64,000 nucleotides of DNA. Source: Clavelina lepadiformis. Taxonomy: Eukaryota; Chordata; Ascidiacea; Aplousobranchia; Clavelinidae. The position numbers and the translations under genes were made by a program. Shown in pieces: positions 17,328 through 54,800 of this stretch. Under the pieces are notes generated by a model, which did not search any database, had not been told where the DNA came from, and saw nothing but the letters and a program-made list of their open reading frames with translations. Within the stretch, counting starts at the first letter, position 1. The number at the start of each line of letters is the position of its first letter. The stretch covers positions 23,498,860 through 23,562,859 of the forward strand of contig NC_135244.1 of the NCBI RefSeq assembly GCF_947623445.1. The letters are read 5' to 3'.

Positions 17328-17722
17328 GTGAGAGAGCGGTTAATCACTTAAATTGTTTTGACATGCGTCCAGTTTTTTGTCAGTGGTTGTCCAGGCTTCT
17401 CTGTACATATTGGTTTTCTTAAAATAAAATTTGTTTGTATCTAACCCTGTATAATGTTTCATGGTTTTGACAGTGCATAAAATTATAAGGCTTTGATGAA
17501 AGCTTTGAAATAAGCTGTACATTAATATAAGTTAACTCTTTGCTAAACAAAATTATGGCAATATTGAGCTGTTGAACCAATAATATTTAATATACTGGAC
17601 CAGGATGGTAATGATTAAGCGATTAGTGGTAGTAGCAACAGCAGCAGTAGATTTAACAACTGAATTTCTTTGTTGTAACAATGCTTGAAACCAAATACTA
17701 CTAATCGAATACATTTTTCTAG

Positions 17723-20700: not shown

Positions 20701-23700
20701 AATAACACTTGTTACTTCTTAGCGCTTTAAGCCAGTTCAACTCGTTTCATGAGCGCACTTCTCTCCCGAACCCGAAACACGGATTTTTCTGTCCTTTTCT
20801 ATTTCTCGAAACCTGGGTTTTAAAATGTTAACATCCGGATTTTTGGACAAATCCAGGAAAACGTTGGCGTTCACAATTTTCAAACATAGCAGAGTCGCTG
20901 TATAGTATTTACGCAATTTATTGTTTGATATTTGGTGATTATTTCATCACAATAGTTAGTTTGCGCAATATTTTTACTGGTAACCTGGGTATTAATTTGT
21001 ATTGCGTCATAAGCAGGAAAAAAAGAAACTTTGTTAATTTGATTAACAAGCAGAATATAACTTGGCACTTCAGACCTTTTATTTACTTAACACGAGCTTT
21101 CGCAAGCTTGAGCTCACATGATCAGGTGGACTATAGGTTATGAATATGCAAACAAGTAATAACACACTGGCACACACAGTGTATTCTCTGTAGGGCTTAC
21201 TCACAACATAAAAACACCATCAACTAAACATTTAAATTACATTTATTATACAAACTCACACATTCATACAATTAAAATGCGTTGATCGCGTAAGCTCTCT
21301 CATGTCGTTGAGTCTTTATGCTGAGGTTTACTCAAAGTTCATGACAAAATTTGACAACCAAAATGATTGCTGGAGTAAAAGAAAATTGCCGAACTAGTCG
21401 AATTTGGCAAAACCGAATTGAACGAACCAGAAAATTTGAAAATATTCACAATTTTGCCAGGATCGACAAAAATGAATTAATAAATTAAACGGAGACGAAT
21501 TGTGCAAATTTCACTATATTACAATGATGTTGATTTTACCTTAATTTTGAGTTGATTTTCGCAAAAAGTTCGTTTTTCTCAAAACTCAAAAACCGGGTTC
21601 ATCACTTATACCCGGAACTCGGTTGTTGAAATTCCCGAATTGGAAACTACTTTTCTCTCGTTTAAAAAAGTGAAAAATGAAAACGATTTCCGCGTCAGTC
21701 TGGTCGCTTTCTTGAGAAAAAATTGTGGCGTTTAGGAATTTTAGAAATTTATTTTACTTCAGGTCCAGTCTATGTTCCAGTGTTGTTGCTGAGCTTTGAA
21801 AAACTTTCCAGCTTACCAGGAATTAACTCATGTAAATAAACATCAAAGCGAGTAGAAATATTTACCCGCACGTGACACGCGTCGCTTACTTAACTCGACT
21901 CACTTAGGCTTACTCATGTAAAAAGGTTGATGACGTGTCATAACAAAAAGCGCAGAAACAAACGACGTGGTCTTTTGTGTCCAAGAGTTTAATCGATGCA
22001 AAACGCAGCTCAGAGAATAGAAGATCAACCCGCGGGTCACGTGTTAAATGTTCTATGATTTGAAATAACAGTCTGTGTGACGTCATAGATATCATACTTC
22101 CAACAATTTCTAAATTTGGCGCCTAAAATCATATTCCGTGTATTTTGAAACAAATTTATAAAAATCAGCAGAAGATAAAAGGAGCAACAAGAAATGGTCA
22201 AAGAAAATCTCACCACTGCAAAGGATTTGACTTTTCCTTCATAAAGTGCTGGAGCAATTATGCTCGAACTTCAAGCACAAGTGACGTGTTTGATTGATTG
22301 ATTGATGGTTTATTTTGAAAGGTTTGCTTTATGCGCTTGGAGGAAGGGTTAGCAACTATGCAACAAACACAGCAGAATGTTATGATCCACGAAGCGGAAA
22401 GTGGGAATATATTCCACCGATGAAAACCCTCAGATCTGGATTAACTGCTGTTGTATTAAACAACGCAATATACGCGATAGGTGAGTCTTGCTGCAAGTGC
22501 AAATATCTTTCAAATGTTTAAGGAGATTTATGACATGTCATTTTCTTTAAATGAATTAAATCAGGTGGATATGGTCTCTCTTCTGTTGAAAAATACAACC
22601 TGGACACAAAAACTTGGATTGACGTTCCATCTATGAATGAGGAAAGATGGGATGGATCAGCTTGTGTGGTGGATGGCCTTATATGGGTGTTTGCAGGGTG
22701 AGTATTTGTATGTATACCTAATTATTATACGTAACCATATTGTTTAATTTATATATTATGATATCATAAATTTCATCACCGAAATAATTATCATATAAAA
22801 AGTGATAACTATAATTGTCAATTGTTAGCCCTGAAGAGGTTGATTTAAAAAAAATTTGCAACAGCACTCCAGCATGCAGAATAGATCATTCGTAGTTAGA
22901 GACATGGAGAGTGACAGCAGTTCTTCAAGCAGCGATGAAGAATGTTTAGCGATAATAGCCGTTGCTCTGACATACAGACAAAGAAAGCACAGAGTGTAGG
23001 TTAGAAATACGTTTAAGAAAAAAGATATCAACAGCTACAAGCTTATTGAAGAACTCGCTATTGCAGATGGAGAAATGTACTTTCGGTATATGAGAATGAC
23101 CTCTATGACAATTTAATCATCACCGGCTGTTTCACAACTAGCAATTTTAAATTGTCACTCAGTGAAATTGTCAGCGATCAGTGCGTACCAGTACCAATAC
23201 CAATTTTTAAATTTTTACCGAAAAATGCAGTGATAATTTTAAATTACTATACCGGTGGAGTCGCAGCATTATAGTGGCAATAGCAGACCTCGGAAATGTT
23301 TGAATTGGTCACAAAGCCAATATTGTTAAATGTTTCTAGGTCATTATGACATCATCGAGCAAAACAATTATGTTATCTTGCCAAATGCATTCTTCACATA
23401 ACTAGCGAAGGAGTTTTACTTTGCGGAAGTAGCTTGTGACTGTCTGATTGTGAATGGTTAGGCAGTCTGGTATGAGTCGGCAGAAGATTCGAGAAGATTG
23501 GCAATTTTAAGGATGCCATCAAAGGATGGCATTTTTGAAATCAGCGCACCAAAATTAGCTAGAAAACGTTGGCATCATACAAAATAAAATTTTCATGCAG
23601 ACCAGTGTTATGAATGGTTAGGCAGTCTGGTATGATTCGGCAGAAGATTTGCTGCAGTAGCTTATAACCAAGTTGGTACCTAACTTAATCTCAGTTCCAG

Positions 23701-23998
23701 AGTATTTCAAATAACGCGATAAAAATCGTTTTTGGTTCGCTTTTCTGTTTATTATGGTTAATATATTCTGGATAACATGCTTTCCAATAATTAATTAACT
23801 TATATACAACCAGGTACAGTAATTATTTTGATGGACTTATCTATCATTTGCCAACATTTTGTGTTTAACAGTTTACTTTATATATTTTGTAGGTGTGATG
23901 GCAAAACAGTTGAGTTCTATGATCCAGCCACCAACAAATGGCAAGTATCGACCAACATGGACAGAATACGACGGTACCCTTGCGTGCTTTCCATCTGA
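17723..23998 (+). CDS. Kelch propeller exons K1-K6 of unit 2
   Basis: Six exons encode six blades: IGGLNC (K1), MGGWPLLG (K2), SGGFND (K3), LGGRVSN (K4), IGGYG (K5) and FAGCDG (K6). K5 is 12 nt shorter than in the other units: the DGSN segment after GGY is missing, in frame. K6 ends in CVLSI-stop as in unit 1. All splice sites in this block are canonical. The large K1-K2 intron holds a solo LTR (18764-19052) and the K5-K6 intron a decayed Harbinger copy. Confidence 0.75.
18764..19052 (-). mobile_element. Solo LTR, related to the Ty3/gypsy family
   Basis: 289 bp beginning TGTTACCGG and ending GTAACA, resembling the ends of the 226-bp LTRs. It shares internal blocks with them (CTGCAGTTAA, GGCACGTCT, AAGGCGCA). 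It is flanked by ATAG on both sides (18760-18763 and 19053-19056). Unit 1 keeps the unoccupied site (AAAATAGAATTG near 4,485). No internal coding region is present, so this is a recombined solo LTR. Confidence 0.8.
21893..22035 (+). repeat. Copy of the window-start intron segment (unit 2)
   Basis: This segment of the K3-K4 intron is the closest match to bases 1-143, including GAATAGAAGATCAACC and GCGGGT at the breakpoint. Confidence 0.7.
22775..23268 (+). mobile_element. PIF/Harbinger remnant, left end lost (unit 2)
   Basis: From 22,874 it carries the same transposase N-terminal segment (acidic Ser-rich start, then RKHRV and YKLIEELAIADGEMYFRYMRM), here with an in-frame stop (TAG at about 22,997). 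The right end meets TTA at 23269-23271 as in units 1 and 3. The left terminus and some flank are deleted. The catalytic region is missing. Confidence 0.6.
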
Positions 23999-30488: not shown

Positions 30489-33400
30489 ATGGCATCACCA
30501 AATGTAAGTGAAATTATGACGTCATTAACATTGTCATAGTGCATAGGATGAATTAATTTGATGATGTCACGAAGATTGATGGGTCTTCGCGAAATTTATA
30601 TTGACGAAATTGCGAATAAGTGTGAATTTAGTTACTTCTAAATCAGTTTAACTTTTCATTAATTGTTCGTCACTTGTTGATCTATTTGCTTGATTATTAT
30701 TGTTTATTATTACTGTACTACTTATGACCATTATTTTTAAATTTTCGACAACTTTAACAACGTTTTTTAACTGCTCCTCATATATTCAAGAAATGTCGAG
30801 CACAACACACAAATACTTTCATGATTCTGAGCAAATTGCAATCGGGTTTAAAGCAGAGATTTTTTAAGTTTATTTCCTGAAATTGATTTGAATACCAGGC
30901 ATCGAATCATAGCGAGGTAAATGGATTGTCCTTGATAAACGATTTCCTGTTATTGTGTCTGTGTGTCCGGTTCAATTCGGCATCGGTTCAACTTGTTAAG
31001 CTTTTAATTTGTCGACAATTTTTTTTCTGTTCATTGAAAAGTTCCACATTTTCCTCACGAGTCACTTCGATGTGACGTATGAATACGTCACCTCTTGTCC
31101 TTATGTGAATCATTTGGTCCGTTAAGATTTAAATGAATTGTGAAGATCACTAATATCTTTAGTAAATGGTTTCGATTAATCTTTTTGGCTTGGTGAGGAA
31201 TGCGGTAAAACCCTCTTCTTGGTTTGCATATTATTAAGAGGATTTCGTTGTTTAATAACCTTCATATTGTCTAAGCAACATCATATCACAAACTTTTACG
31301 TTTGTTTTTCTCAGTTAGTTCGTGACGTACACGAACCTTCAACCCAAGCAAGAAAAAATTAAAAACATCTCTTTACATAAGCATTGGGCTGTCATTGGGA
31401 ATAGCGTTAAAATTTCATTTTCTTTTTAGTAGAAATCTTGTCTTTGTAGACTTCCAGCCCAAGCAAGCACATCATGATCAGCTACAACTGGAGTGACTCG
31501 AAGGAGTTGGCGCATAAGGTGGGTTGTGCTCAATTATGTTGCGATGTCTTGAAAATTTATATCAACTGTTGATCGATGAATCTTCCTCGAGTGGGAGCCA
31601 TATTTATTTCACCATCTGCGTGGAATCATTATGCTTTTTTATACATTTGATTGTTATCATTGCCTAGTTTGACCCAGTTAATTTAAGTGAGAAGCAAATC
31701 CAAAAATAAATTTGTCCTAAATCAAAGCACAGGTGTCAAAGAAATCAGTGGCAAAAATATACAAAATCATTGCTTATAATGACGTAAATGGCGGTCATTA
31801 CAGTGTTACGTCACAATATAAAATCAATGAGTATAACTTAGGTATTTAGATGAAGTATAAATGGAATATTTTGTGTGGTCAACAAGCAATAAGCATAATT
31901 AAAGTTTACTTTATAACAAGAATGTTTTTCGGTGAAATAAAACAAAGCTAAACTTCCGCTGATGTATTTGTACTGAATGTAAATGCTAAGCAACAGTCCA
32001 GTTTTCGTCGTTGGCGCTAACCTTGTTTGATCCCGGTAACTGCAGTAAAGAGAACAATCCTTTTCTGAATTACAGCCAACATTTTGTTGTTGAAGGCAAA
32101 GTATTTTTATTTAGAAATGTCCACTTTGATTCTTTTTTAAATTGCAAGCGTTCTATGCATCGACCTGTAAAGATTTCGCTCAGGTCGGTAGCTTATAAAA
32201 TTGTGTACATAGTAAATAGAAAAATATTTGAAAACGGTTGCCTGGATTTTGGTTTTACAGTGCTTTGTATCCTACTCATTGGCTTTGCTCGACATGAGGT
32301 CACATTACGTGGTCAGCGTGGTATGTGACGTGAAATACGTAATAATAGGTTACGAGTAAGCTACAAACCGGCGTAAAATAAAAACTAGGCAAATCTTTTT
32401 CCAATGTCTTTTCATCTCGATATAAAAAAATTCATTCCATTCGTTGAATTGTTGCTTCATCAACTCGACGTGGTTTATTCTAGATCAATGATCGTTTGTA
32501 TGATGCTGGGTACCAGGTTTGGATCGACAAGGAACAGATGAAAGGAGATATGTACGAAATGATGGGCCGAGCTGTGAACAACGCTCACGTGGTTCTGATG
32601 TTCACTTCTTCCAACTACGAGAGAAGTGCTAATTGCCAGAGTGAAGCGAACTATGCAAAAGATCTGAAGAAGAAAATTATCCCAATTCGTGTCCAGAAAG
32701 GATACGAACCAAACCCCAAAATTGGTAACAAATTAAATCTTAGTAACTAGGTTTTGGAATCGTAAAAATCTTTGGCTCGTGGCAAGCCGAGCTTTTGACT
32801 TTAACCTTCATGAGTGCCCGAGCCGAGCTCGTATGACGTCATATTAAAAGATGTGTAAATCCGAGCCAAACATCGTTATAGTGTTGGCTTCGTCCAGATT
32901 GTGTACTTCACGTTTATCTCACGTTTGCTGCTTGCTTCACATTTGCTTTAGCATTTGACAAACACAAATTGTGAGATTGATATTTTAAGAACACAAATTA
33001 GTTGTAAGTTACATCGTGTACACACTCGCGCATAATGAAGTCGTAGCTTCTTGAAGCAGAAAACGTTTAAAACTGGTTCGGGCTCGTGCTTGTCGCATCT
33101 CTGAAATAATGTAAAAATCGAGATAAAACTTAAATACCCAGAATAACAATTTTGAAATAGTTGTCTTGTTTTTATTCCACAAAACTTGTATAACTGCGTG
33201 ATGACGTTCTTAGGCATGATGACAGCAGGCTTGCTCTACTACGACTTCAGTAAAGGATCTTTTGATGACAATTTCAATAAACTTTTTCATGAGATAGGTG
33301 AGTTTATCATTCAAGTTTTACTCTTGTTTCTCAGATATTTGGTCAATTCAAAATTGCAGCTTCTTGTAAATTTATTAATTTAATTTTAATTTATTAAGTG

Positions 33401-36400
33401 AGAGTTGTAAACTGTTATACTGTTAACCCAAACTAGGTCCGACTACGAAATTTTATTTGAAGCCCCAATTAGCCCCGAAAGTTAATTTTACTAAACGAGC
33501 CAAAGTCATATTTTGATGCCACTCTTTGACTTTTATTATTTTCTAAGTACACGAATGTACAAGCGGGCAGACTGTTAAGAACCTGCTGCAGTGAGCAAAC
33601 TCAACTTAGAAAATGATAAAAGTCAAAGTGTGACATCAAAATATGACTTTGGTTCCCTACACTGTAGAGAAAGGGAATTTACGACGCAAATGTGGCAGAG
33701 TGTGAATATAAATTCGAGCTCGAATCTGGTCCGAAATTGGTTTCAAACTTAAGCCCGAACCCGACCTGAGAATCCCGGTCCGACTTACAAATCTGGTTTG
33801 AGTTGATAATAATCTGGGTCGGTTGATGTTGATAATAGCAGAATAATAATATTTGTGCATGTAGATACTATTATTTGATGATGAGTGGATGACTACTTCT
33901 ATCAGTATATGCTTAAAAATATTCTGTTACTACTTTGGTTAAGATTTGTTTTTATTTTTTTATTTTGTTTCAGAATCCATTGCTGGTATCGAAATGACAA
34001 GAAAAGTGGAAGCTAAACTTCATAAAATGAAAATTATAGAAGCTCCCGGTAATAAGTTATTTTTAAACATGATGGCTACATTTTTAAATTAATACTTCTG
34101 TTAACAAATAAATAACTAAAACACAAACTGATTCACCAAGAAACACAAACAAAATCCATTATCACATGTGAATAAATTTCGTATCCACTTTATGATAAAA
34201 GTTTCATATGCGCCTGTGTTAAACTCACTAATGCTGCAAAGTTGGAAACTGCGAGGAGATATTTTAATTAATAAATAAGTTACTCCAACCGTAGTTATAC
34301 GATTTGGTCACAGTCAATGCTATCACGTCACTATTGGGTACATATTGACCGCGTCTTTGACGTTGATAATGACAAGAAGTAAAAAGACGCCTATCTTACT
34401 ATTACTTCGAGTTAATCAAATTCTAGTTCGTACTCTGGTCACAGCCGAATTAATGATCTTTCGGCGTTTGCTGTAATTTCTTTAACAGGTCAGTCTGACG
34501 AGATACTTATGATTGGTGGATTGAGTTGTCAACAAAGTGTTGTCAAGTTCAACACCAATACAAAGCAGTGGAGTGACATGCCGGTATGTTTGCGTTTTAA
34601 ATATTTGGGTTTAGAACAAAAAAAGTCATTATACTGTCATAGACATACGTCGTCTTGCCACAGCATTGTAGCACTCGAAAAACAGTTGAAAGCCAACAAT
34701 CAATGTTCATGTGTTTGGTCATGAGTCATGACAAATTCCAACCTTAGAATAGGTGGCGTCTTTTTGTCAAAAACACCCGGCACAGACAGACGTCCCCAAC
34801 AGGAATTAAAACTAAAATAAACCAGTTTTCCAAAAGTTTGAAAAGTGGTAAGAATTGTGGAAATTAAAATCAAAGGTTCCAAGTGAAACGACTGTGTGGA
34901 TGCAAACCCATGTTGCTGTTTGCTCTAGATCCATTAACCCCCACATGCCGCTCAGCCATTTCCAGTTTAAACTTTACGTTTTGTTGCGTGTTTGATAATA
35001 TCGCTGCATCAAGACATGTTTTCTCTTCAATTTCGCCATTTTATTATCTTCACCATTTCACTTATTACTAGGTCACATATGTCCAACCGAAATACCTTAG
35101 TGGAATTAATTAAAAAACAAAACCAAAATGAAAAACCGTTCAAATGACTCCGAGAAATGACTCAGAGAATCGAAAAACCGCTGAAATCCACTCAGAGAAA
35201 GCATAACTCCATCAAGGCTGCTCGTCTTGCTCTTGCCATTGTGAGAAATGGAGCAAAGATTAAGATCATTGTTTTGTCACAATGTAAAAGTGTTTTAATT
35301 ATCGCGACTAACCATTTTATTTTAAAAGCAAAAAAATGTTTCAATTGACAAGCTGCTAAGAAAAGTGAATGTTAAAGTTATGAGCTAATAAACATTCCTT
35401 GCGGTCGGGGAATGTCGTGGATTGTTGTTTCTTGATCGAATTGATTGTTATGAATTCTCCCCTGCAGAAAGTTTATACCTGTGTTGTTATGTGCCACTGT
35501 ACAATCCTCTCAACCACATAACTTTATTGACCATGTCTATGGGCCATCATTTATTCATATTGTATTGTTACCTGCAGATAATTTTTCTGCCTGGGTCTGG
35601 CCAGGCCATCTCCATTAATAACATCATATCCAGTATTTTGTTGACATTGTTAGTAAATTCACTTCAGTTGATATTGACTTTTTGCAATGATGTTTCATCA
35701 TACAGGATACAAACATTGCTCGGAGATATCCATCTGCTGTAAATTACAATCAAGAAATTTTATTGATGGGTGGTAGGCAAGGATATAGTAGCACTTACTA
35801 CAACTCTGTTGAGATGTTGGACTTGAATGATGAGAACCCAAAGTGGGATAGCAGCTTGCCTTCTATGGGAGAAAAGCGGTATACATTTGCATCAGCTTTA
35901 TTGAATGGTAAGTTATTATGATGTCATAAAAATGTTTTCTAGCTTGCGAATTTCGCTAGCAGTTGGCACGTTTTAAAGTTTCAGGTTTTGCGGAAAACTT
36001 GGATAGAAATTTGCATGAAAAATTAAGAAATTTGTGTTTTTATGCCCAAAAATCCACTTTTGATTTTGGGCCTATGTAACGGGATATATAGATATGTGAT
36101 TTTGCCATATTCCAATATGAGACAGCATAATTTTGCTCTAAAAAGAAATAAACAAAGAAATTGACCTTTTTTTAAACCCATACGCCTCCTATGGAGATTA
36201 TCACTTAAATAATTGAAATATGTGCGATATCTGCACTCGGCTCCTGGCCCACATCGCCGTTTTCCGAAACCAGGCAAAAGCAAATTGTATTGTGACGTAA
36301 TAACCGTCTTTTGATAACTATTGTTACGACATAAATCGATTATGGAAAGTATGGCAGTGACGCTGCTAAACTGTTAAAGTGATATCATACTGCGCAAAGC

Positions 36401-39400
36401 CCAGGAGAAATATCGCTTTTGCATCTGGTGAAAAAGTAGATCACACCCTACGTCGATAAAGTTACGATAAGCAATTAAGTTTGGGAAAATGTTTGTAAGA
36501 AAATAAGTGAGATTAATAACGACCATAATAAATAACCTTTTTTTACATTTTAACTTGCTTGTAACATTTGCTAAATTGAAACTCAATATTAAACAATTAG
36601 TTGTGATAAAAACCTGCTTTGAAAATAAACAACAATGACATCACAGTATTACAAAAAAACAACGCGCGCGGTAGCAGCAAAAATTACGTAATTATTTACT
36701 GTCAAGTATATCAGGAAATTAAGTTCCGAGTACGTGCAACACTAATTTCAAAGCATATATCGATTAAGTTATAAAAATAACCGCTACGTAAAGCAAATTA
36801 CGATTCCAGGATGAAAACTCGGCTCATTGTTATATAGGCTTATATAGGCTCATTGCTCGTGGTTCGGTTTGAAGTTGAAAAAAGAGCGACGTTCTTGAGA
36901 TCGTTCCTAAGAAATAGGTGCGCGCTCTCTTTGACAGACAGTAATGGTGGTCGTGACGACTGTTAGACCACACAGGGCTCGCACTTTAGATTTTAGACAC
37001 TAACGTCAGCGTAGTTGTAATTACATCGCTCGATTTAACTTTTGTGTTTGATGTGGCTGACTCCAACTACGTTGAGGTTTCATGCAATATGGACCAGAAG
37101 AGTGCATAAATAAGTTTGTTTTCATAATTGTGAGTATTTTCATAATCGTAGTTCTGTAATTAACCCTGGGTAATTTTCAAATGAAAGTGACTATTTCGTC
37201 ATAAAAAGGTCACACATCCCGTTGTTAAAGATAGGCGGTTAGGTTAGGACATTGCTTCTCAATCCCTGCATCGCGACTCCCAGTGATTTTGCTGGGTCAC
37301 CATGTAAGATTTGTAAATCGTGTTACATGGGTTAGAGTTATTTTAAGCAATTATTATAGCTTGAAGCATAATATACGTTACGTAACACTCAAAAGTGACG
37401 GCATTTGCCTTACCTTGATTTTGTTATTTTATAGTTTAGTTATTACGTAACAATAGAAAGCGTCATACGCAGTAATCGTTGGACACTTGCCAACTAGAAT
37501 ACAAAGTAATTTGTGGGAAACACTGTAAAGGAATAATAGCACGTTGTCAAAGACACAATGTAGTTCACAAAATGTGTGACTGCTGCTGCTGACAAGACAC
37601 TTTTATCTTTGTTGTCTTATGTATTGCCATATCGCACATTTTGGTTGTTATAGTTTTTAAACGAATGCGAATAACAAAGTTGATGTCTAGAAAACACATT
37701 TTATTTACGACAACCGTCACTAAGTTGCTTGTGCAAATTGCCAAACTTGCGTTCATTCATTCGAAGTACTTTAGTATATATAAAAAGTTGGCACAGTAGA
37801 AATAGGTGCGGCGTATAAGCCCACTGCTGCTTTTTGGGATTGCATAAGTGGGCTTATAGGTCTACAGTACTTATGGGCTTTTTAAATAACAATGTTAAAA
37901 AATCTGCTTCTGAGTGCTGGGTTATTCAGGACTTAAGATTGTTTTAGTTGGATTAAATTGCATTTTGTTAGCATTGTTGCAACTCACTACATATGACACG
38001 GTTAGATTCGAAATGCTAGATTTGCTATCTCTATTCTTGAAACCATTAGGATTCTACTTTGACCAACCCTAGTTAGGAGAATGGGTATTTTAGTTATTTA
38101 ATTGTTGTTGTATTAGTTGTTAATTAACTAGTTGTAATTTAGATTTAGATTTCTATGCTATACATTTAAGTTAGATTAACAAGTAACTATAAAAATAACT
38201 TCTAACATACCATTGTTTCTGATGAAACAGTGAAAACCATTTTAAATTTACGCCCAGCTTTAGTCCATACCTGTTTATAACAACACAATAACAAGGTAGA
38301 TTTAAATTAGGCGATGATCGGTCACTGCTCTTGTCCCAGTCACTCAGGTTGTCTTTTTACGTTTTCTAATTGATTTGTTTTTAATTTGAAATTTTATTTT
38401 TATTTTGCCCGGATTTGGAATTGTTCACCAGGACCACTGAACAGGAGCAAGTTTACTTGAATACCTTGCCCAAGGAGATTACTATGGTAGGATAGCGCCA
38501 TCGAGTGTCGAACCCAGGCGCATAATTGCGAGTCTGTGCTCAACCACTCACTAATCTTATGAGATAATCAACAAAGTGTTTGAAAAAACACAACGCGTCA
38601 CAATAAGCTCCGTTTATACTTCATTGGTTCAATAAATAATTATGATGTCATAGAAGGATATAACAAAAACCTTCTGGTATAGATTTTCACCTGATTGTGC
38701 CCCGTAGGTCTTGTTTATTGTGCTGGTGGTTGGAATGGCGCTGGTTGTTTATCATCATGTGAAAGTTACAATCCTGAAGAGAGGAGCTGGTCTTCGATAA
38801 GAAACATGAATAAAAAGCGAAGTCACCATGCTTTGGTCAGTGCACGAGGTGAGTTTATTATTTTGATGTTTGAAGTAAACTTTTGTCAAAGTTGTCGAAG
38901 TAAATTGAAAGATGCCAATCACCAATAGTTTGTTTCCACATGATAAAACCATACCGGCACCTGCCCGCGGACCGCAGTATACGTGAAACAGATTCTCGCG
39001 TTCTTATTCGCATGATTTACTTGACAATGTTCATTGTCACGTCACAAGTCCAATTTACAGTGCAACAAAGTCTTTGTTGTAACTCCTTGATATTCGTTCT
39101 TACGAGCACATGGTCCTCAGAGGAATCCAGACCTAGATATACTCCTAAAAGTTTAACTAAACATAGCTGCTTGGCGTTCATCATCACCATCAAATAGTTT
39201 GGTGGCAATAACACTTTTTACTTCTTAGCGCTTTTAAGCGAGTTCAACTCGTTTCATGAGCGCACTTCTCTCCAGTGTTTCCAATCCAGATCTTCCCCAA
39301 CCCGAAACCCGAATTTTTCTGCCCTTTTCTACGACTCGAAACCTGGGTTTTAAAATGTAAGCGTCTGGATTTTTTGACGAATCCAGGAAATCTTTGACGT

Positions 39401-42400
39401 TCACACTTTTCAAACAAAATGGCGTAGCTGTACAGTATTCACGCAATTTATTGTTTTGTATTAGTCGAATATTTTATCACAATAGTTAGTGTGCGAAATA
39501 TGTTTACTGGTAACCTGGGTATTAATGTTTATTGCGTCATAAGTAGGAAAACAAAGAAACTTTGTAAACTTGATTAACAAGCACAATATAACTTGGCACT
39601 TCAGACCTTTCATTTACTTAACAGGAGCTTTCGCAAGCTTGAGCTCGCATGATCAGATGGATTATAGGTTATAAATATGCAAACTAGTAATAACACACGG
39701 GCACACACAGTGCATTCTCTCCAGCGCTTCCACACAACATAAAACACCATCAATTACACTTTTAAAATGGATTTACTTTAAAAACTCACACATTCATTCA
39801 ATTAAAATGCGTTGATCACGAAAGTTCTCTCAAGTCGTTGAATATTTACGCTTAGGTTTACGCACGTCTATGTTTACATGGTTCATGACAAAATTTGACA
39901 ACCAAAATATTTGTTGGAGTAAAAGAAAATTCCCGAACTAATTAAATTACGCAAAGACGAATTAAACGAACTTGAAAACATAAAAATATTCACAGAATTG
40001 CCAGGATCCAAATAAATGAATGAATCATTTAAAGTTTAAACGGATACGAGTTATGCAAATTCCACTGTAATACAATAATGTTGATTTTACCTTAATATTG
40101 AGTTAGTTTTCACAAATAAATTCTTTTTTTCTGAAAACCCAAAAACCGGGTTTGTCACTTATACCTGGAACCCTGGTTTTGGAATTTCGTCCCAAATTGG
40201 AAACACTACTTTTCTCTCGTTAAAAAAGTAAAAAACCAAAGCGGGTTTACGTGTCTGTCTGGTCGCGTCAAGTGGACTCGTATAAGTGACGTGACGGTGA
40301 CGAGCTTGGAAGCGGGTTGAGACATTTTACAAAATAATATTCACAATATAACAAAATGCTGATGACTTGATTGATTTCTATGGGAACGAAAAATCCATGC
40401 ACAAGCTTAGACACTTACTTGAGATAGTATCTTCAAAAGATTTGAATAAGTTGCTCTAACCCAGTAGCCTTGATATCCCATTGCTGGTACTCATTTGTGC
40501 GTAGGTCTTTATTCTGTAAATTAGAGCACCGCACCGCACCGCACCGCACCGCACCGCACCGCACCGCACCGCACCGCACCGCACCGCACCGCACTGAACC
40601 GCATTTCGCTTGCTTGCTTGTTAAAGCGCAGTCATTAACTAAAAAGGAAATAAAACATTAATAGTAATATTAATTTATGAATTATATTAATTATATTATT
40701 TTTTTAATTATTTAATATTATATTAATGTTAATAAAAAAGTGAAACATTGTAATTAATCTACTAACACATTTAAAAGTGGTCAACAGTGTTTCAAGAATT
40801 TAATTCCGCAAGTGACGTGTTTGAATGATTGATGGTTTATTTTGAAAGGTTTGCTTTATGCGCTTGGTGGATGGGGTGGCAACAATCAAACAAACACAGC
40901 AGAATGTTATGATCCACGAAATGGAAAGTGGGAATATATTCCACCGATGAAAACCTGCAGAGATGGATTAACTGCTGTTGTATTAAACAACGAAATATAC
41001 GCGATAGGTGAGTCTTGCTGCAAGTGCAAATATCTTTCAAATGTTTAAGGAGATTTATGACTTGTCATGTTCTTTAAATGAATTAAATCAGGTGGATATG
41101 ACGGTTCAAATCGTCTCTCTTCTGTTGAAAAATACAACCTGGGCAGGAAAACTTGGATTGATGTTCCATCTATGAATGAGGAAAGAAGTGGTGGATCAGC
41201 TTGTGTAGTGGATGGCCTTATATGGGTGTTTGAAGGGCGAGAAAATATATGCATACATAATTATTATACCTAACCATATTATTTTTATTTTATATCATTT
41301 AATTTATGTGTTACACTATCATAAATTTACTTTTACTAAGGGCTTAATGTCTGATGCAGTGATTGCCAACTTGGGGTCCATGAACCACTAGAATAGATGA
41401 AGGTGAAGGTCATGATGAGTTTTGGGAAATGAATTAAAAACATTTCATTTCATTAATTTACTCAGTTAAGCTATGGCTCGAACAGTGACAATTTTCTCAG
41501 TAACAGGTTTTTTAATAAAAATTACTCCTGGTGGAGCCGCTCAATTGCCGGTGTTTTAATGCCGCTCCACCAGCGATATTTTGAGGTAAAATGTCATCAC
41601 TGAAATAATTATCACATAAAAGTGACAATTAAAACAGTCATAATAACAATAATATTGACAATTGTTAGCTCTGAAGAGATTGATTTTATAAAAATTTGCA
41701 ACAGCACTCCAGCATGCAGAATAGATCATTCGTAGTTAGAGACATGGAGAGTGACAGTTCTTCAAGCAGCGAGGAAGAATGTTTAGCGATAATAGCCGTT
41801 GCTCTGACATACAGACAAAGAAAGCACAGAGTGTGGGTTAGAAATGCGTTTAAGAAAAAGGTAGCAGAAGCCACAAGCGTATTGAGATAGAGAAAAGTAC
41901 TTTCGATATATTAGAATGACCTCTAGTTGTTTGAAACACTTGCTTTGCTTGGTTGCCCCTCAAATAACAACACAGGTTACAAACTACAGAAAACCTATTG
42001 CACCTGAACAAAGACTTTCTCTGACACTTCGTCATCTAGCTGCTGGTAGGTCTAACATATCTTGGAGCTTGCAGTATAGACTTGGCCGTCAAACTATATC
42101 TACAATCATTCAGGACACTTGTAAGGCCGTCTACACTGTTCTAGTCCCTACTTATGGAAATATACTTGCATCAAATGGAGATTGGCGAACTATCTTAAAA
42201 CAGTTTGAAGAGAAGTGATACTTGCCACACGTTGTTGGTGCGCAAGATGGGAAACATGTACGCATTCGTTGTCCAACAAAAAGTGGGAGTTTCTATCGCA
42301 ATTATAAAACGTTTTCTAATATAGTTCTGCTTGCCGTTTGTGACGCCGACTACAACTTCGTCATGTTTGATTTCGGGCAATATGGCAGTAACAACGATAG

Positions 42401-43286
42401 TGACGTTTTACTTAAAAATGTGATAAAACTAGTTGGCTCAAAATAGATTGAGCATTCCTAATGGAAGATAATTATTTTATTTTCCCAGTAGTAGTTTCAG
42501 TGATTATTTATCAACACTTTTTGATAAACTGTTGCTAAAATTGTCACTATAATTATCGCTAAACTTGACAACTTAAGTCATCACCGGCTGCTTCACCACT
42601 GACGTATCTTTAATGGTCACTCAGTGAAATTGTCAGCGATCAGTACGTTCCAGTTGCACGTTTTAAATCTTTACCAAAAAATGCAGTGATAATTTTTAAT
42701 TACTACAGGTGGTGCCATAGCTTTATAGTGGCAATAACAGACCTCGGACAAGTTTTTTATTTGTCAAAAAGCCAATAGTGTTTTATGTTTCTAGGCCATT
42801 ATGACATCATACAGCAAAACATTATTATTGTCTTGCCAAATGCAATCTTCACATAACAAGCAAAGGGGTTTTACTTTGCAGACATAGCTTGTAATTGTCT
42901 GATTGTCAATGGTTAGGCAGTCTGCTATGATTCGGCAGAAGATTTGCTGCAGTAGCTTATAACCAAGTTTGTTCCTAACTTAATCTCATCACAAGAATAT
43001 TTCAAATTACGCGATAAAATCGTGATTGGTTCGCTTTTTTCTTTATTATGGTTAATATATCCTGGATAACATACTTTTCAATAATTAACTTACATATAAC
43101 CTGGTACAGTTATAAATTTGCTCGTCATTTATCATTTGCAAACATTTTGTGTTTAAGAGTTTACTTTATATATTTTATAGGTCAGGTGCCAAAACAGTTG
43201 AGTTCTATGATCCAGCCGCTAGCAAATGGCAAGTATCGACCAACATGGACAGAAAACGATCTAATCTTTGCGTCCTTTCCATTTGA
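30489..43286 (+). CDS. Unit 3: TIR-kelch fusion gene, frame intact (443 aa predicted)
   Basis: Exons: 30489-30503 (MASPN), 31450-31518, 32484-32724, 33214-33297, 33974-34048 (TIR and linker); 34489-34583, 35706-35907, 38708-38848, 40849-41007, 41092-41236, 43181-43286 (kelch K1-K6; stop TGA 43284-43286). They sum to 1,332 nt with every phase compatible and no stop. The TIR occupies about residues 13-140, a linker about 140-161, and a six-blade kelch propeller 162-443. TIR domains signal by self-association and many cleave NAD; kelch propellers bind partners. All introns are GT-AG except that after K5, which starts GC. The first exon is the least certain; the Met at 31474 inside exon 2 is an alternative start. 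There is no signal peptide or membrane segment, so the protein is probably cytosolic. A receptor function is inference. Confidence 0.75.
31450..34048 (+). CDS. TIR domain exons of unit 3
   Basis: Exon 31450-31518 gives HIMISYNWSDSKELAHK (first strand, the F/I-S-Y box). Exon 32484-32724 gives RLYDAGYQVWIDKEQMKGDM, then NNAHVVLMFTSSNYERSANC. Cys is at about residue 79 and Glu at about 82 (codon 32643-32645), the position of the catalytic Glu of NAD-hydrolysing TIRs; KKKIIPIRV follows. Exon 33214-33297 gives MMTAGLLYYDFSKGSFDDNF, matching the C-terminal part of many invertebrate TIR domains. Exon 33974-34048 is a basic linker ending APG at phase 1, the same phase as the end of the BACK head in units 2 and 4. 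Confidence 0.85.
33499..33653. mobile_element. Hairpin MITE in the TIR intron
   Basis: Two 50-bp arms (33499-33548 and 33604-33653) are nearly perfect inverted copies (CCAAAGTCATATTTTGATG and its complement). They surround about 55 bases of unique sequence. It has no coding capacity and is absent from the equivalent intron of unit 1. Confidence 0.7.
34489..43286 (+). CDS. Kelch propeller exons K1-K6 of unit 3
   Basis: Blades: IGGLSC (K1, 34489-34583), MGGRQGYS (K2, 35706-35907), AGGWNGAG (K3, 38708-38848), LGGWGGNN (K4, 40849-41007), IGGYDGSNR (K5, 41092-41236) and FEGSGAK (K6, 43181-43286). In K6 the usual GGCDG is altered to EGSGA, perhaps an early sign of decay or a changed loop. The K5 donor is GG/GCGAG. 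Introns are large, notably K2-K3 (2.8 kb) and K3-K4 (2.0 kb). Confidence 0.8.
35908..38400 (+). other. Expanded K2-K3 intron of unit 3
   Basis: The matching intron of unit 2 is about 450 bp. Here some 2.3 kb of extra AT-rich DNA is present without a convincing gene. It contains a perfect 12-bp hairpin (TATAAGCCCACT at 37814-37825 and its complement at 37847-37858). Confidence 0.4.
38411..38565 (-). repeat. tRNA-derived SINE-like element (unit 3)
   Basis: Minus-strand copy of the element at 5,828-5,985, at the equivalent intron position. The B-box reads GGGTTCGACACTC. The conserved tail (CAAGGTATT, CAGTGGTCCTGGTGAACA) is present. Confidence 0.55.
40526..40590 (+). repeat. GCACC pentanucleotide microsatellite, 13 perfect units
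   Basis: Thirteen uninterrupted GCACC units, followed by imperfect GCACT and GAACC units. It lies about 260 bases before kelch exon K4 of unit 3, where units 1 and 2 have unique intron sequence. It is strikingly GC-rich against an AT-rich background. Confidence 0.95.
41469..42722 (+). mobile_element. PIF/Harbinger element with transposase remains (unit 3)
   Basis: Its termini are inverted (AGCTATGGC at 41469-41477 and its complement at 42714-42722). They are flanked by TTA on both sides (41466-41468 and 42723-42725), the target duplication of PIF/Harbinger. It is the longest of three copies at the same intron site. A 10-bp hairpin (CTGGTGGAGC at 41528-41537, complement 41564-41573) lies near the left end. 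Unit 4 shows the empty site CAGTTATAG near 55,319. Confidence 0.85.
41714..42446 (+). pseudogene. Harbinger transposase, truncated and stopped
   Basis: The N-terminal part (41714-41890) is acidic and Ser-rich, then RKHRVWVRNAFKKK, and stops early. A second open stretch (41916-42218) has RLSLTLRHLAAG and YRLGRQTIS. After an in-frame TGA (42216-42218) the frame continues with VVGAQDGKHVRI and NYKTFSNIVLLAVCDADYNF, then DFGQYGSNNDSD. These match the first two acidic sites of the HARBI1/DDE_4 nuclease. The third acidic residue region is missing. Inactive. Confidence 0.8.
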
Positions 43287-47629: not shown

Positions 47630-48700
47630 TTTCTTATCATGCAATAAGTTTGTCACCATGCATGCCCTGTGTTGCCTTCCTGCTCTAAGTGCGAGAACAT
47701 TATTCCAGTGATTCTTGATTTTTTATTATTATTTAATATCACGTTTTCTGCTGACAACGAAAGCTTATATTGCCAGTAATATTAGCAATGTCCTATATTT
47801 CTCCCACATGACTATAAAGTATCATATTTGAACCTAGTTCCGTATTGATAAATCCATATCGCCACCTGCCCGGCGACCGCAGTATACCTGGAGCCGAGTT
47901 CTTATTTGCATTTTGTTACTTGACATCGTCCATTGTCACGACACAAGTTTCTCAACAAGCAATCAGCACTCAAGTGTGACGTAGATTCCCATTGTCAATT
48001 GAACTATAATATAATATTATAATATAATATTAATATAGTATGACGTATAGAGGTATAACAAATTGCAAATCGACAGTAAAAAAAGACTAAGTATAATTAT
48101 GTGACGTCAGTAGCTATGTTTGCATTAGGCCTGCTCACAGGATATATAGGCCTATTTCTCAGAAATTGGTGTAATTTCTAAGCAGCTTGCAATCCTACCG
48201 TATGTTTATGTTTATCCTATTGAAGCGTTTACTCCCGATGTAACTCATTTTGCTAAATCGCAATCGAGAAGAGGCTGTTATTTTGCTGTGTCGACTCCAT
48301 GTAATGTTGTGTTCTTATATTTAAGAGATAAATGTGGTGCAATAACACTAATGAAAACAGGCTGCATCTGGTATATAGCATAGAGTATATCAGACACACA
48401 GTTTAAGTATAACTGGGAAAGGTCTCGCGTTTAATTTGCTTTATTACATTTTTACATCATAAAGTCGCTTTTAAAGGTGACTGAATAATCGAATACTGGT
48501 AAAACGAGGTACGGATAATCAAGGAACTACTGCAGTAATACTAATGCAGTGCATGTATGCTGTAACGTGTAGTATACAGTATATGACAACACTAGTAAGT
48601 ATTTCAAAAAAATGTTCACTACAAAGGTGGAATGGATTAAATTCTTACTAACTTACTATTTCCCAAAAAGTTTTAAGTATTTACTATTTTTTTCTTTGTT
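47630..48700 (+). other. Region upstream of unit 4
   Basis: AT-rich sequence, including a short palindromic run of TAATATAATATTA at about 48,005-48,035. I searched for the first half of a BTB domain and did not find it. The 5' end of unit 4 may lie here or further left, beyond the DNA transposon. Confidence 0.3.
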
Positions 48701-48707
48701 GTTGAGA

Positions 48708-48853
48708 GAAAGTAGTTTGAGTAAAGAAAATGTTAAAGAAGCTAGTGGTCCAACAATGGCATCGATTATAAACTTCATATACACTTCACGCATAATCCTC
48801 ACTAATGAGAATGTATATGATATACTGGAAGCAGCAGAATATCTATGGATTAC
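48708..48853 (+). CDS. BTB domain exon (C-terminal half) of unit 4
   Basis: Reads ESSLSKENVKEASGPTM, then ASIINFIYTSRIILTNENVY and DILEAAEYL. The spacing from the Glu-Ser to the Tyr-Thr of the BTB consensus is the standard 25 residues. The donor CAA/GTAACT at 48854 gives phase 1, matching the BACK exon. The acceptor near 48,708 follows a T-rich stretch and is approximate. Confidence 0.65.
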
Positions 48854-51800
48854 AAGTAACTGTTATTAATGCAGCTGATTTTGTGATACTTGTTGTATTT
48901 ATTGATACAACGCTGTGCATAAAGGTTGATTGATTTGTGTATTATATAAAAGTAACTTAAACTGTCAACTCTTTAGTACAACTGTACAAAGTTTGGATTT
49001 TTATGCCTTTAAAAATACTTTTAAGTAGAATTCGGTTAATTGATTCAGAACGCCGGACATTTAACATTTACAACCAACCTATTTTCGGATGTAACGTTTT
49101 TTTTGATCTGATTTATTCAACTTGTAGGCAGAAACAGTCCGTTCATGAGTAGATGTTCCTGATATTCGGGCGGTTTAGGTTCTGGGCTCACACATAACGC
49201 GATCTGTGTTCGATACCTAGTGACGCTACTTTTTAATGCTATTTGGCAAGGTATTAAACAATGTTTGCTCTTGTACAGTGGTCCTGGTGAACAGTTCTGC
49301 GTTTGGGAAATAACATATAGAAATCGATGTAAAGTGAAACATTCAACTTTAAAATCAATAAAGCAAACCGAAAAATATAGTTTTGCAAATGGAACTTGGA
49401 CAATGGCAAGCTTGGTAACTGGAGCTCAAGCGACGAGGGCTCATCGCTGGGTTAAAGTTGTGGAAAGATTTTTCATCCTCTGGAGATAAAGGTTATCATA
49501 CCACACCATTTGTCCATAATCGGCCATTGTTTCTTCTCGGTAAACAGCTCCACACAACTTGTTCAATTAACATTTGGTCATTACCATAATCATAGGCAAT
49601 TGTTTGAACACAGTAAAGAATAATTTTCGTCCATGAGGAATCGAAAGTGGAAGTATTAAATCGGGTTTTTATAATGGATGATGAATACGAAAATTTCGTT
49701 TCCAGCAATTTCGATTTAATAATCAGTTGGTTGTGTGAACCGTGGATGTATTCACTGGATTTAATTGTAATTGCATGAGGTTTTGATTTAAAACTGCATG
49801 GTACTTCTATATAAATGAGCAATCAATGTTTTCTAATTTATATAGAAGTACAATGCAGTATTTCAGAGATATATCCTTTCAAAAAAATTTTGAGAAACCT
49901 GTAAAATTTGGGAATTTATCGAATATATGTAATTCAAGGAACTTGAATAAACATTAGAAATGAGTGGCTGTTAATAAATTTTATGTCGTAATTAAATGAT
50001 AGATTTCACTCCTAATTGAATCGGAAGATTTTTTAAGGTTTGAAGCAATTCTACTGGGAATTTTTCAAAGCATCTCTCAATGGAGAAAATTGTTTGAAAA
50101 TTCGATCTTATTCAAACCGATACAACATGGGTGATCTTGTTCAAGCAGCTGAAACTTTCATTTCTAAAAATCTCAGAGCAGTTTTGAAAAGTGCAGATTT
50201 TCTTCAGTTTGGTGTTGATGATGTCAAGGCTATGTTGAAGTTGGATAGTGATGAAGTAAACTTAGAAAGTTTTTCTTTTGTAATGATTTTTATCCAATAT
50301 ATCATTTTAACGTTTTTGTTTTGATAGTTGTTAAATCATTGAGTGAAATTTTGTAATTGCAAGAAGATAATTATAATTAATCTCAAATTTCATGTTAGAA
50401 TTGTTACACTGCGGTATAATAGTTAAATATCTAGAATTTGTACATTACCCTGTGCTCTATTTATAAGGGAAAGTGAAGAGGCATTGCTAAAGTTATCTGT
50501 TTTTAAACAAATATATGATGTAGGCTGGCTCATATATGCATGAATGGCCTTGAATGTTTGTTGCAAGGTTTTGCAAGATACTTCTTATCTCGAATAAGAT
50601 AACATGATTTAAATTTTCAAATATTGCTAGCAGTTAATATAATTTCGTTATTAAGTTAAGACATTAAATGAAAAAATTAAATGTCATTATTCATACCATC
50701 TGCAGTGTTTTGTTTCTTCCACCATTTTTTGACCATTCTTAGCTTTAGCATTCGTCATATCTTGTAATTAGACATATATAAAGGTGCCTATGATATCACC
50801 CCAGCCTTGATTAAATTTCAGGATTCGATCGATGAGGACAAGTACAGAAGTGCAGTTGCTTGGGCACTTCATGATTTGGATGATAGACGAAAACACTTCA
50901 GTGATTTATTTCATCTCATTCAACTGGAAAATTTATCAAAAGATTTTTTAATAAAGGTTGTTCAAAAGGAGGTAACTTGCTTGAAGTTTGGCACGCAATG
51001 CTGATTTCTTTGCATCATCATGCATTGCCAAGTTTAGAATAATTTTTTGAAATAAATTAAAAAGCTTGTGGAGATTTTCCTTTTATCAATGTTAACGGCA
51101 AGCACATAAACAAACAGAAGAATTTTTCAATAGCATGTAATTGTTCTGTAATTTTGCAATTTTGCTCCAGGAGTAAAACTACGTTTAACCTCAGTTTGAT
51201 GACGTAGCTCATGAAGCTGATAGTGCAAAAATATTTACAATTGTTGGTTTCTAATTTTTAGGCTTGTAAATATTAACTGTCGTTGCTCTTTTGTAAACTC
51301 ACAACTTCACGGGCTTTAATCTTGCAATTGTAACATTTTTGTAACTTGCAGTTATTAATTTTTTTCTCCTTAAACTAATTTTACACTAAATATATGTTTC
51401 AAATATGTTTCAATTTTAATCATTTAGAAACTGGTTTGCAACTCCACGGATTGCATGCAACTTCTTGTGAAATCACTCCTTTCTCGAATATGTGACGTTC
51501 CAGCGTTTAGGACAAAACCAGGTGAGACAATGGTTAATAACTTGAATTGTTTTGACATGTGATCATTTTTTATCAGTTGCTGTCGAAGCTTTTCATCATA
51601 AATCTATGCATTCTGAAAATTAACACTAAATATAATTTTGCTTGTAACTAACTCTGCCTAATGTTTCATGATTTTGACACTGCATAATATAATAAGGTTA
51701 TGATGAAAGTTTTGAAATCAGCTTTGAATTAATATAAGTTAATTCTTTACTAAACAGAATAATGGCAATATCGAGATATTGAACAAATAATATTTAATCT

Positions 51801-54800
51801 ACAAACCTATACGGATCACGATGGTAATGAATAATTAAAAGCGACTAGCGATAGCAGCAACAACAGCAGTAGATTTGACAATTCACTTTTCTCCATAAAC
51901 CAAAAACTCCTGCCTTCTGACAACTAATACCAAAATGAACTTTGCATGTAACTAACCCTGTATGTTGTTAAGTAGACCAGGATGATAATGCCCAAGTGCG
52001 TCATGGTATTAATAACAACAACTGTAGTAGTAGCTTCGACCAATAACTTTCTGTGATGTAACAATGCTAATAACCAAATACTACAATATTTATTTTGATC
52101 GAAGTTTACGTCTTATCCATCATTTTAGTCCTTAGTAGCATTATGTTTTTAATTGGGGCTTTATAATAAAAAGTTTTAGGTATTTGCACCTTCTTACAAG
52201 ACATTTATCACTCTTAATAAATGAAAGACAAAGTTTCAAATAAATTCTACACAGTTTTCAACTTGCTTGCAGCCAAGCAACTAGCTTGTCACAATAGTTG
52301 TCCACAGGCTGCAACCGGCCTGTATTTGCTTCATGTTGGTTCTAACAAAATGGAATATTTTTCCAGGTCAGTCTGATGAGATACTAATCATTGGTGGATG
52401 GGATTGCCAACAAAGTGTTGTCACCTTCAACACCAAGACAACGCAGTGGAGTGACCTACCGGTATTTTTGCTTTATAAATAAAAATTTTTTAAGTAAGAT
52501 CTGTGTTTATGATGTCTTGAACAAATTATAAAGTGTACTGCGCTACTGGACGTATACGAGTAACATTCGTTTGCCACGTCAAAGTGTATTATCGCGAATA
52601 ACCATTTCATTTCACATAACTTCATTGACCTTGTTCAAGGACCATCATTTATTCATATTGTGTTGTTACCTGCAGATTGTTTTTGTACTTAGGTCTGGCC
52701 AGTCCATTTCCACTAATAACACCATATCCAGTATTAAGTTGGTACTGTTAGTCAATTCACTTCAGTTGATGTTAACTTTATGCAATGATATTTTATCATA
52801 CAGGATACAAACATTGCTCGGAGATGGCCATCTGCTGTAAATTACAATCAACAAATTTTATTGATGGCTGGTGGTAAAAGTAGGACTTACTACAACTCTG
52901 TTGAGATGTTGGACTTGAATGATGAGAATCCAAAGTGGAATAGCAACTTGCCTTCTATGATTGAAAAGCGACTTGCATTTGCATCGTCTCTATTGAACGG
53001 TAAGTTATTAAACTATCATAACAATACAAATACTAATATTAACGTGGAATCTTTTTATGATGAACTTTATAAGCGTTTTCATGCTTCAGACACATATTTC
53101 CTAATGTGATAATTTGGCATATAATAACAACAATTAGAAGGTAAATTACCAACAAACCAGACACTGAAGTTCTGGAACTGCACAACCTCTAAACTACACG
53201 TCATTTCAACATCGAAAAATAAACCAAAAAGCCTTATGCTACATGTGATTGTAACGATTAGATTTGTGTTTTGTGTGTGAGATTTCGGAAAAGATTCATA
53301 AGCAACAATAATTTACTTAGAAAATGTTAAACGCAGTTGTTTAAATTGATGTTGTGGTGAGGTGGTTTGCTAAGATGTTTTCCGTCTAAAATTGGAAAGG
53401 TTGAGAAGCACTGGGTTAGAAGCAGATGTATTCAAAAGTTTATGACAGATTTCTAACATCTAAGTTATCTTAAAAATAAAATTAAAAAAAGAATAGTTGG
53501 TAAAAATAACTTAAAAGATTACTTGAAAAACTTTTTTTCAATGATCCAACGAAAACCATTTTTAATTTACGCCCAACTTTAGTCTTTACCACATTTATGA
53601 CATCGCAATATGTATATGTCACAACTCCATTCACTCTTCACTCTTTTCTCGATTACTGATTGTTTTCTTTTTCTTTTTCTTTTTAAATTTTATTTTATTT
53701 TGTCCCAATTTGTTGATTTGATCGAGTCTTGTAGATCTTGTTTATTGTGCTGGTGGTTATAATGACACTGGTCGTCTATCATCCTGTGAAAGTTACAATC
53801 CTGAAGAGAGGAAATGGTCTTCGATAAGAAACATGAATAAAAAGCGAACTTACCTTGCCTTGGTCAGTGCACGAGGTGAGTTTATTATTGTGATGTTGGA
53901 ATATAAACTTTTGTCAAAGTTGTCGAAGGAAATTGAAAGATGCCAATCACCAATCGATCGATTCTACATTGATAAAATCATACCGGCACCTGCCCTGGAA
54001 CCACAGTATACGCAAAGCAGATACTCACGTTTTTATTCGCATTTTTTACTTGAAATCGACAATTTTCACGTCGCGAGTCCACTTTAAAACGTAATAAAGT
54101 GCACAAGGTTGCTGTTTTCTTATTCTCATTCGTGTTCATGTCTTTGTTGTAACTCCTTAATAAGCGTTCTTACGAGCACATGGTTCTCAAAGGAATCCAG
54201 ACACTTAGATATACTTCTAAAAGTTTAACTAAACGTAGCTGCTTGGCGTTTACTATCACCATTAAATAGTTTGATAACGGTGACACTTCACGCCATGGTG
54301 TCTTCAAGCAAGTTCAACTCGTTTTAGTACTTTGTTTAAAGTATTCGAAACATGAACGTGCCTTTTTTACGTTTTAAAAATTGAAAAACCAAAGCGAATC
54401 CACGTTTCTGTCTGATCGCGCCAATCGCGCCAAGTCGAGCACATAAATGACGTGGGTTTACGAGCTTGGAAGCGTGTTGAGATAAATTATGCCAATATCA
54501 CAAAATCCAGTTGAATTGATCGCTTTCTATGCAAAAGGGAAATTCATGCATAGGTTTAAACACTTATTTGAGAAAGTATCTTCAAAATATTTAATTAATT
54601 AAGTTGCCCTAAAGCAGTAGAACTTACCCAAAGGTAACTCATGCAAATAAGAAAGGTTTGCTTTATGCGCTTGGGGGAGTGGATGATGATGACAACAATG
54701 CAACAAACACAACAGAATGTTATGATCCACTAAATGGAAAGTGGGAATATATCCCACCGATGATAACCTGCAGATATGGACTAACTGCTGCTGTATTAAA

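Follow-up and report, generated by a model that had tools for sequence, protein, structure and literature searches.

The 64,000-nucleotide window analysed here is a stretch of chromosome 5 (C5) of Clavelina lepadiformis (bases 23,498,860 to 23,562,859), and the gene at 30489-43286 of this window encodes a TIR domain joined to a kelch propeller. This gene belongs to a C5 array of TIR-kelch units in which the propeller codons aligned with the ligand pocket of KEAP1 carry an excess of amino-acid change. We consider it somewhat probable, from the sequences compared below, that the TIR-kelch proteins are germline-diversified intracellular sensors, in which the kelch propeller would recognise a ligand and the TIR domain would be the effector.

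The 11 exons found across 30489-43286 on the plus strand joined in phase to give 443 codons followed by TGA, with no internal stop, and the product had the order TIR_2, linker and six kelch exons. A sequence-only reading of this DNA had described TIR exons in phase with six kelch exons over 443 codons. That description was exact, and the same exon order was found in all 14 of the 18 TIR-kelch units on C5 that were read at exon level (12 fetched and two in the window). The TIR-to-kelch junction which it had placed at 34,048/34,489 was confirmed as the linker-to-kelch intron. Nine of the ten introns were GT-AG and one, after exon 10, was GC-AG. The exons of the gene were as follows.

30489..30503, plus strand: exon 1, start codon, MASPN, phase 0 donor gtaagt
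31450..31518, plus strand: exon 2, first TIR strand, TSSPSKHIMISYNWSDSKELAHK, near-identical among the 13 copies seen
32484..32724, plus strand: exon 3, TIR core, with Cys-Gln-Ser-Glu82 at the position of the glutamate of nicotinamide adenine dinucleotide (NAD)-cleaving enzymes
33214..33297, plus strand: exon 4, TIR end, MMTAGLLYYDFSKGSFDDNFNKLFHEI
33974..34048, plus strand: exon 5, linker, helical by eye, ESIAGIEMTRKVEAKLHKMKIIEAP, phase-1 donor
34489..34583, plus strand: exon 6, first kelch exon, phase-1 acceptor, joining point of TIR or BACK modules
35706..35907, plus strand: exon 7, kelch
38708..38848, plus strand: exon 8, kelch
40849..41007, plus strand: exon 9, kelch
41092..41236, plus strand: exon 10, kelch, GC donor, Glu in place of Gly
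43181..43286, plus strand: exon 11, last kelch exon, NLCVLSI and then the stop TGA

An ATG exon similar to exon 1 and followed by a GT donor was present in eight of the 14 units (up to 4 mismatches, within the stretches read), and the database protein P0002 starts MASPNTSSPSKHIMISY. In the Pfam search of the 443-residue protein, TIR_2 (PF13676) matched residues 13-132 with E 2.5e-25 (89.7 bits against a cut-off of 28), spanning profile positions 1-121 of 122. Kelch_1 matched with E 4e-57, and several kelch models matched from residue 165 onward. When aligned with the KEAP1 propeller, the six kelch exons corresponded to six blades. No BTB or BACK match was obtained by Pfam in this protein, which ruled out a KLHL gene with an unrecognised BTB domain, and no match to NACHT, NB-ARC or LRR was found by the same search (NACHT and NB-ARC at E 0.01). 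Several units had the linker exon in two or three copies, and their linkers may thus differ in length. In the unit at 23.0040 Mb, a second exon 4 and two more copies of exon 5 were located past the propeller (17719-19336 of the joined stretch). The exon 8-9 intron of the window gene also held a GCACC repeat of fifteen copies (40526-40603).

Public gene models joined TIR and kelch exons as well (P0001, P0005, P0007 and P0122). P0001, a database model of 430 amino acids with the source name "TIR domain-containing protein", differed from the spliced window protein at two of 430 residues, positions 153 and 308. P0005 and P0007 are kelch-named models on C5 that correspond to the units located at 22.8585 and 23.8923 Mb. 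Three diverged TIR-kelch proteins were also found in Clavelina, namely P0011 (65% identity to the query), P0068 (39%) and P0122, the product of a gene at 13.98 Mb on C7 where the arrangement of TIR plus six kelch exons is repeated inside 3.6 kb. In P0122 (L029 1363-1581), ten residues and a hydrophobic stretch (19 residues, mean hydropathy 2.35) precede the TIR and kelch parts. Because of this stretch the protein is probably membrane-anchored, with TIR and kelch both placed inside in the predicted topology; no similar stretch was seen in the window gene or P0005. If TIR and kelch exons belonged to separate mRNAs and the joined frame were a coincidence, public models such as P0013, P0021 and P0064, which have kelch without TIR or BTB or end after two kelch exons, would be readily understood. 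Such a separation is nevertheless highly improbable, since the linker-to-kelch intron was phase 1 in 14 of 14 TIR-kelch units read and the junction was phase 1 again in the BACK-kelch unit read, public gene models join both parts, and the TIR and kelch exons of the C7 gene together span no more than 3.6 kb. Phase, paralogues and public gene models agree, and the TIR-kelch fusion is well supported as a real one at the sequence level.

Genome-wide searches were carried out with exon 3, a BACK exon and exon 7 as queries, and their counts are lower bounds. Between 22.47 and 24.34 Mb of C5, at least 18 TIR exons of the window type, at least 36 BACK exons and at least 49 exon-7 propeller copies were located. 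A propeller lay downstream of each of the 18 TIR exons, 30 of the 49 propellers followed BACK, one followed neither, and six BACK exons had no paired propeller. The TIR-kelch units were interleaved with the 30 BACK-kelch units, which use the same propeller. A lone chance fusion was ruled out by this array: the fusion itself had been recognised correctly in the sequence-only reading, but the window gene is one of at least 18 C5 units and not a single TIR-kelch gene. That reading noted that kelch propellers usually follow BTB-BACK, but the BTB-BACK-kelch neighbours sharing the same propeller had been missed in it. These interleaved neighbours indicate that BTB-BACK and TIR are alternatives at one intron.

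Exon 2 was seen in 13 of the 14 units, that of the first window unit being expected outside the window, and exon 11 was seen in 11, with none found in the 20-kb stretches of the remaining three. TIR-TIR neighbours occurred once among 54 modules, whereas shuffling gave 5.7 and reached so low a number in 57 of 20000 cases; this rarity could be explained by two-gene block duplication alone. Some array copies were near-identical, for example those at 22.9371, 23.1165 and 22.6828 Mb. Haplotype duplicates were rejected as the whole explanation of the array, because the assembly is a HiFi assembly curated for haplotypic duplications, according to the available portion of PMC10884593, and because six disjoint pairs of units differed at 9-12% of propeller sites.

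For analysis of the propeller pocket, KEAP1 numbering was fixed on P0100 by one anchor, which we take to be Ser363. The contact set consisted of the 13 codons aligned with the KEAP1 ligand-contact residues that are named for its complexes in the accessible part of PMC6891428, minus Phe577, for which there was no counterpart. Nonsynonymous (pN) and synonymous (pS) change was measured by difference counts rather than a codon model in 13 units (11 TIR-kelch and two BACK-kelch, with exon 11 in 11 of them), the copies at 22.9371, 23.1165 and 22.6828 Mb being dropped. The contact codons had a pN of 0.54 and a pS of 0.17, while the values for the other codons were 0.096 and 0.135, respectively. None of 20000 random 13-codon sets reached the contact pN, and pN dropped at every step when the contact set was slid 1 to 8 codons either way. 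Since pairs of units share history, the count was repeated on the six disjoint pairs. In these, pN/pS was 2.34 at contacts and 0.68 elsewhere, with nonsynonymous to synonymous differences of 72:7 at contacts vs 304:121 elsewhere (Fisher p 1.2e-4), and the contact codons exceeded neutrality (binomial p 0.008). Five pairs made of TIR units only gave a contact pN/pS of 2.24 (p 0.020).

Pocket-aligned codons carry excess amino-acid change, as in a fast-evolving receptor family. The earlier suggestion that the propeller may sense a ligand has here found independent support, and the fast change of the putative pocket points to an antagonist or to a partner that changes. The excess is silent on which partner drives the change, and an array for recognition between individuals or gametes, or for turnover of fast-evolving self proteins, might produce it in place of microbial defence. 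Clavelina is colonial, and P0122 carries the source name "spermatocyte protein spe-26-like". We hold this explanation to be quite unlikely, however, as the name spe-26 seems to have been given automatically on account of the kelch part and the two differences between the window gene and P0001 (153 and 308) fall outside the 13 contact codons. With two of 430 residues different, both outside the contacts, strong allelic diversity was not seen in this pair.

The TIR part was examined by counting the ratio of nonsynonymous to synonymous change (dN/dS), with the near-identical copies at 22.9371, 23.1165 and 22.6828 Mb kept. The ratio was 0.34 for exon 3 over 14 copies (0.20 and 0.36 within its two sequence types) and 0.34 for exon 2. 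An SxxCxxE motif was present in the 14 listed TIR-kelch proteins, the C7 gene and seven rows of A2. The motif glutamate aligned with the CxxE position of RPS4 in a weak PDB match (E 0.02), and this glutamate is presumably the catalytic position in the TIR domains of plant RPS4 and SARM1. The suggestion in the sequence-only reading that the TIR may signal is compatible with the constraint on exons 2 and 3 and with the kept glutamate. With the TLR-type TIR model PF01582, the window gene scored 16.2 bits against a cut-off of 21.3, and its sister P0005 scored 24.7 bits.

Other TIR and kelch genes of Clavelina were seen outside the C5 array. A second TIR array was located on C4 at 0.7-3.4 Mb. It comprises another 29 TIR exons, which share 51-57% identity with exon 3 and are without exception on the minus strand, and no kelch match was nearby among the matches listed. 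P0066 contains three TIR domains, and P0121 has a TIR domain with a long C-terminal tail that is leucine-rich by eye and had no Pfam repeat match. TIR is joined to several partners in Clavelina, as these two protein sequences indicate. On C6 at 1.96-2.11 Mb, six kelch places with an equal score of 48.7 bits and open frames of 558 to 588 codons are a separate set of recent kelch gene copies.

These TIR genes bear on the output of the proposed sensor. Its TIR domain could recruit other TIR proteins as an adaptor without enzymatic activity, as MyD88-type adaptors do, and the 29 C4 exons, the triple-TIR P0066 and P0121 would offer many candidate partners; the passing of the PF01582 cut-off by P0005 is in agreement with this. 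An adaptor role is unlikely in our judgement, given that TIR_2 is by far the better match, that the window gene remains under the PF01582 cut-off and that the glutamate aligned with that of RPS4 CxxE has been kept.

The window contains three more units of the array, which lie on either side of the gene at 30489-43286 in the following order.

1631..10004, plus strand: upstream TIR-kelch unit, exons 3-11, with TAG in exon 3; a probable pseudogene
16040..23995, plus strand: BACK-kelch unit (BACK exons 16040-17332, kelch 17725-23995), upstream of the 30489-43286 gene
48549..55892, plus strand: BTB-BACK-kelch unit (BTB 48549-48857, BACK 50037-51529, kelch 52369-55892), downstream of the 30489-43286 gene

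The BTB match at 48549-48857 contains a gap and a stop, possibly an intron, and no BTB exon of the BACK-kelch unit at 16040..23995 was found in the BTB search. The last BACK exon of this neighbouring BACK-kelch unit ends ..CCT G/gtgaga, in phase 1, and uses the same kelch acceptor; the BACK side of the junction was read at base level in this one unit. With a common phase-1 intron, TIR and BACK modules could trade places without loss of frame.

A propeller tree was built from 60 rows by a quick method with support from the Shimodaira-Hasegawa-like approximate likelihood ratio test (SH-aLRT) only, some genes being included twice, as database protein and as genomic copy. TIR and BTB rows were mixed on this tree, with 9 (BTB) or 10 (TIR) label changes, at least two of them forced by starred branches. 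The BTB protein P0035 grouped with four TIR rows at 99 and was 88.0% identical to one of them, and propellers of approximately 82% identity sit behind BTB-BACK in Clavelina. When DNA of the window was aligned, parts of the kelch introns and the 3' flank of the 30489-43286 gene matched the BACK-kelch neighbour at 84-90%, and the first TIR-kelch unit matched the gene in parts at 79-90%. We read the mixed propellers as probable propeller exchange between units, and gene conversion is compatible with the data, as is block duplication.

Several observations weigh against the sensor interpretation. The first concerns the window copy itself, for which the donor of exon 10 was GC (GG/gcgaga), while GT was found in 16 of 17 exon 10 copies, including that of the C7 gene. 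The residue beside this donor was Glu in the window gene, Gly in 14 of 16 chromosome-5 copies and Ala in one. P0001 has the same join of exon 10 to exon 11, VFEG-SGAK. A GT nine bases upstream (GGT/GTTTGA) also keeps the frame and would give 440 codons without Phe-Glu-Gly, and the remaining GT sites near the end of exon 10 break the frame. The gene had been called intact in the sequence-only reading; this was borne out for the frame, but its 443-codon form requires the GC donor, which that reading had not noted. The window copy could splice poorly because of this donor, and a DDE_Tnp_4 transposase fragment lies in the same exon 10-11 intron (42219-42443). The claim for a TIR-kelch family is independent of the window copy.

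Further points of this kind come from the array and the counts. A stop was found in an exon of three of the 14 TIR-kelch units read (22.7174 Mb, the first window unit and 23.2713 Mb). Pocket mapping rests on sequence alignment to KEAP1. A broader loop set, drawn after the alignment had been viewed and hence not blind, with a single codon from exon 6, was weaker on the disjoint pairs (pN/pS 1.36, p 0.05) and in TIR units only (pN/pS 1.30, p 0.11). The dN/dS was 0.74 for exon 4, 0.88 for exon 5 (the linker) and 0.90 for exon 6, so constraint is weak across the junction. On the propeller tree, TIR and BTB labels were more clustered than shuffled labels (0 of 500 as low) and 28 of 57 inner branches were open; with some genes in duplicate rows as well, exchange appears limited, not free. 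The architecture cannot be called conserved across species, since no TIR-kelch protein outside Clavelina was found among the matches listed in a word-based search of limited sensitivity.

Some of these points would suit the view that the TIR-kelch genes are functionless, unstable by-products of recombination in a kelch-gene array. TAG interrupted two of the 18 C5 TIR exons in addition to the stops in units just mentioned, ratios for linker and propeller were near 0.9 overall, near-identical copies are present, and the window copy has its GC donor. Nonetheless, such an origin appears improbable: TIR exons 2 and 3 are at a dN/dS of 0.34, contact codons exceed neutrality, P0011, P0068 and P0122 exist as separate diverged proteins, and 11 of the 14 units had no stop in the exons read.

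The nearest solved relatives by sequence were designed SAKe propellers, KEAP1, KLHL3 and KLHL12. The six-bladed kelch propeller is common to the window protein and the BTB-BACK-kelch proteins of the KLHL type (KLHL12, KEAP1), but the window protein is without BTB and BACK and has TIR at the same intron instead. With the TIR NAD-cleaving enzymes (SARM1/tir-1, plant RPS4 and bacterial defence TIRs) it shares the TIR_2 family and the aligned glutamate, the RPS4 match being weak, and weak matches to PADLOC TIR effectors were also obtained. It differs from these enzymes in having a kelch propeller as putative sensor, not LRR, ARM, SAVED or Ago, and its activity is a predicted one. In plant TIR-NB-LRR (TNL) receptors the TIR output is likewise joined to another recognition domain, whereas the window protein has no NB-ARC or LRR match. 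One sunflower TNL carries a Kelch motif, according to the consulted portion of PMC6115920; kelch is an added motif in that protein and would be the whole sensor in Clavelina. The best PADLOC match to P0001 was the bSEFIR anti-phage protein (PDLC03957; E 1.3e-14, residues 2-256). The kelch half alone had no PADLOC model match, so an architecture shared with bSEFIR is not shown.

Among the best 120 of 775 protein matches, 14 were labelled both TIR and kelch, all from Clavelina. Further protein searches gave 10 matches, all from Clavelina and nine with kelch, and four matches, one with kelch (Clavelina). A prokaryotic TIR-kelch parallel was rejected: three of seven loci were inspected and contained no kelch motif by eye, with no domain search made, and one inspected locus was a repeated TIR protein. 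The openly licensed literature searched yielded no account of a TIR-kelch family; PMC12373286 includes Clavelina in an orthology analysis, and kelch is mentioned 0 times in its available text. TIR-kelch proteins are already public, with names that are either general or kelch-like. Both TIR receptors and KLHL propellers were known before; the new elements are their fusion, the shared variable pocket and the interleaved array.

Ligand binding, enzymatic output, an immune role and activation by clustering are what we infer for germline-diversified TIR-kelch sensors. The rapidly diversified top-face pocket of the six-bladed propeller would bind some peptide or protein ligand, the ligand may bring TIR domains together and thereby switch them on, and the TIR output would most likely be that of a NAD-cleaving or nucleotide-signalling enzyme. 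The pool of propellers appears to be common to at least 18 TIR-kelch and about 30 BACK-kelch genes of the Cullin-3 adaptor type and to be exchanged at the phase-1 intron, so that the same recognition surface would be wired to two outputs. BTB-BACK proteins act in Cullin-3 ubiquitination, a pathway into which the BTB sisters would feed ligands of the same class. Taken further, the approximately 50 propellers of a 1.9-Mb array with a hypervariable pocket might form a system of germline-encoded intracellular recognition, its pool shuffled by exon exchange between TIR effectors (NAD cleavage or signalling) and BTB-BACK effectors (Cullin-3 ubiquitination) as alternating neighbours; such a system would be the animal equivalent, by convergence, of TIR receptor clusters in plants. 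We put this wider proposal forward tentatively, as one that may well not hold.

No description of a family of animal TIR receptors based on a kelch propeller was found in the literature searched. Should the pocket bind foreign or self ligands, this chordate, a close relative of the vertebrates, would possess cytosolic sensors in a large germline repertoire, with a recognition part common to degradation and TIR output. In that case, one genome could address both the origin of receptor-effector pairs and NAD cleavage by animal TIRs other than SARM1 in immunity.

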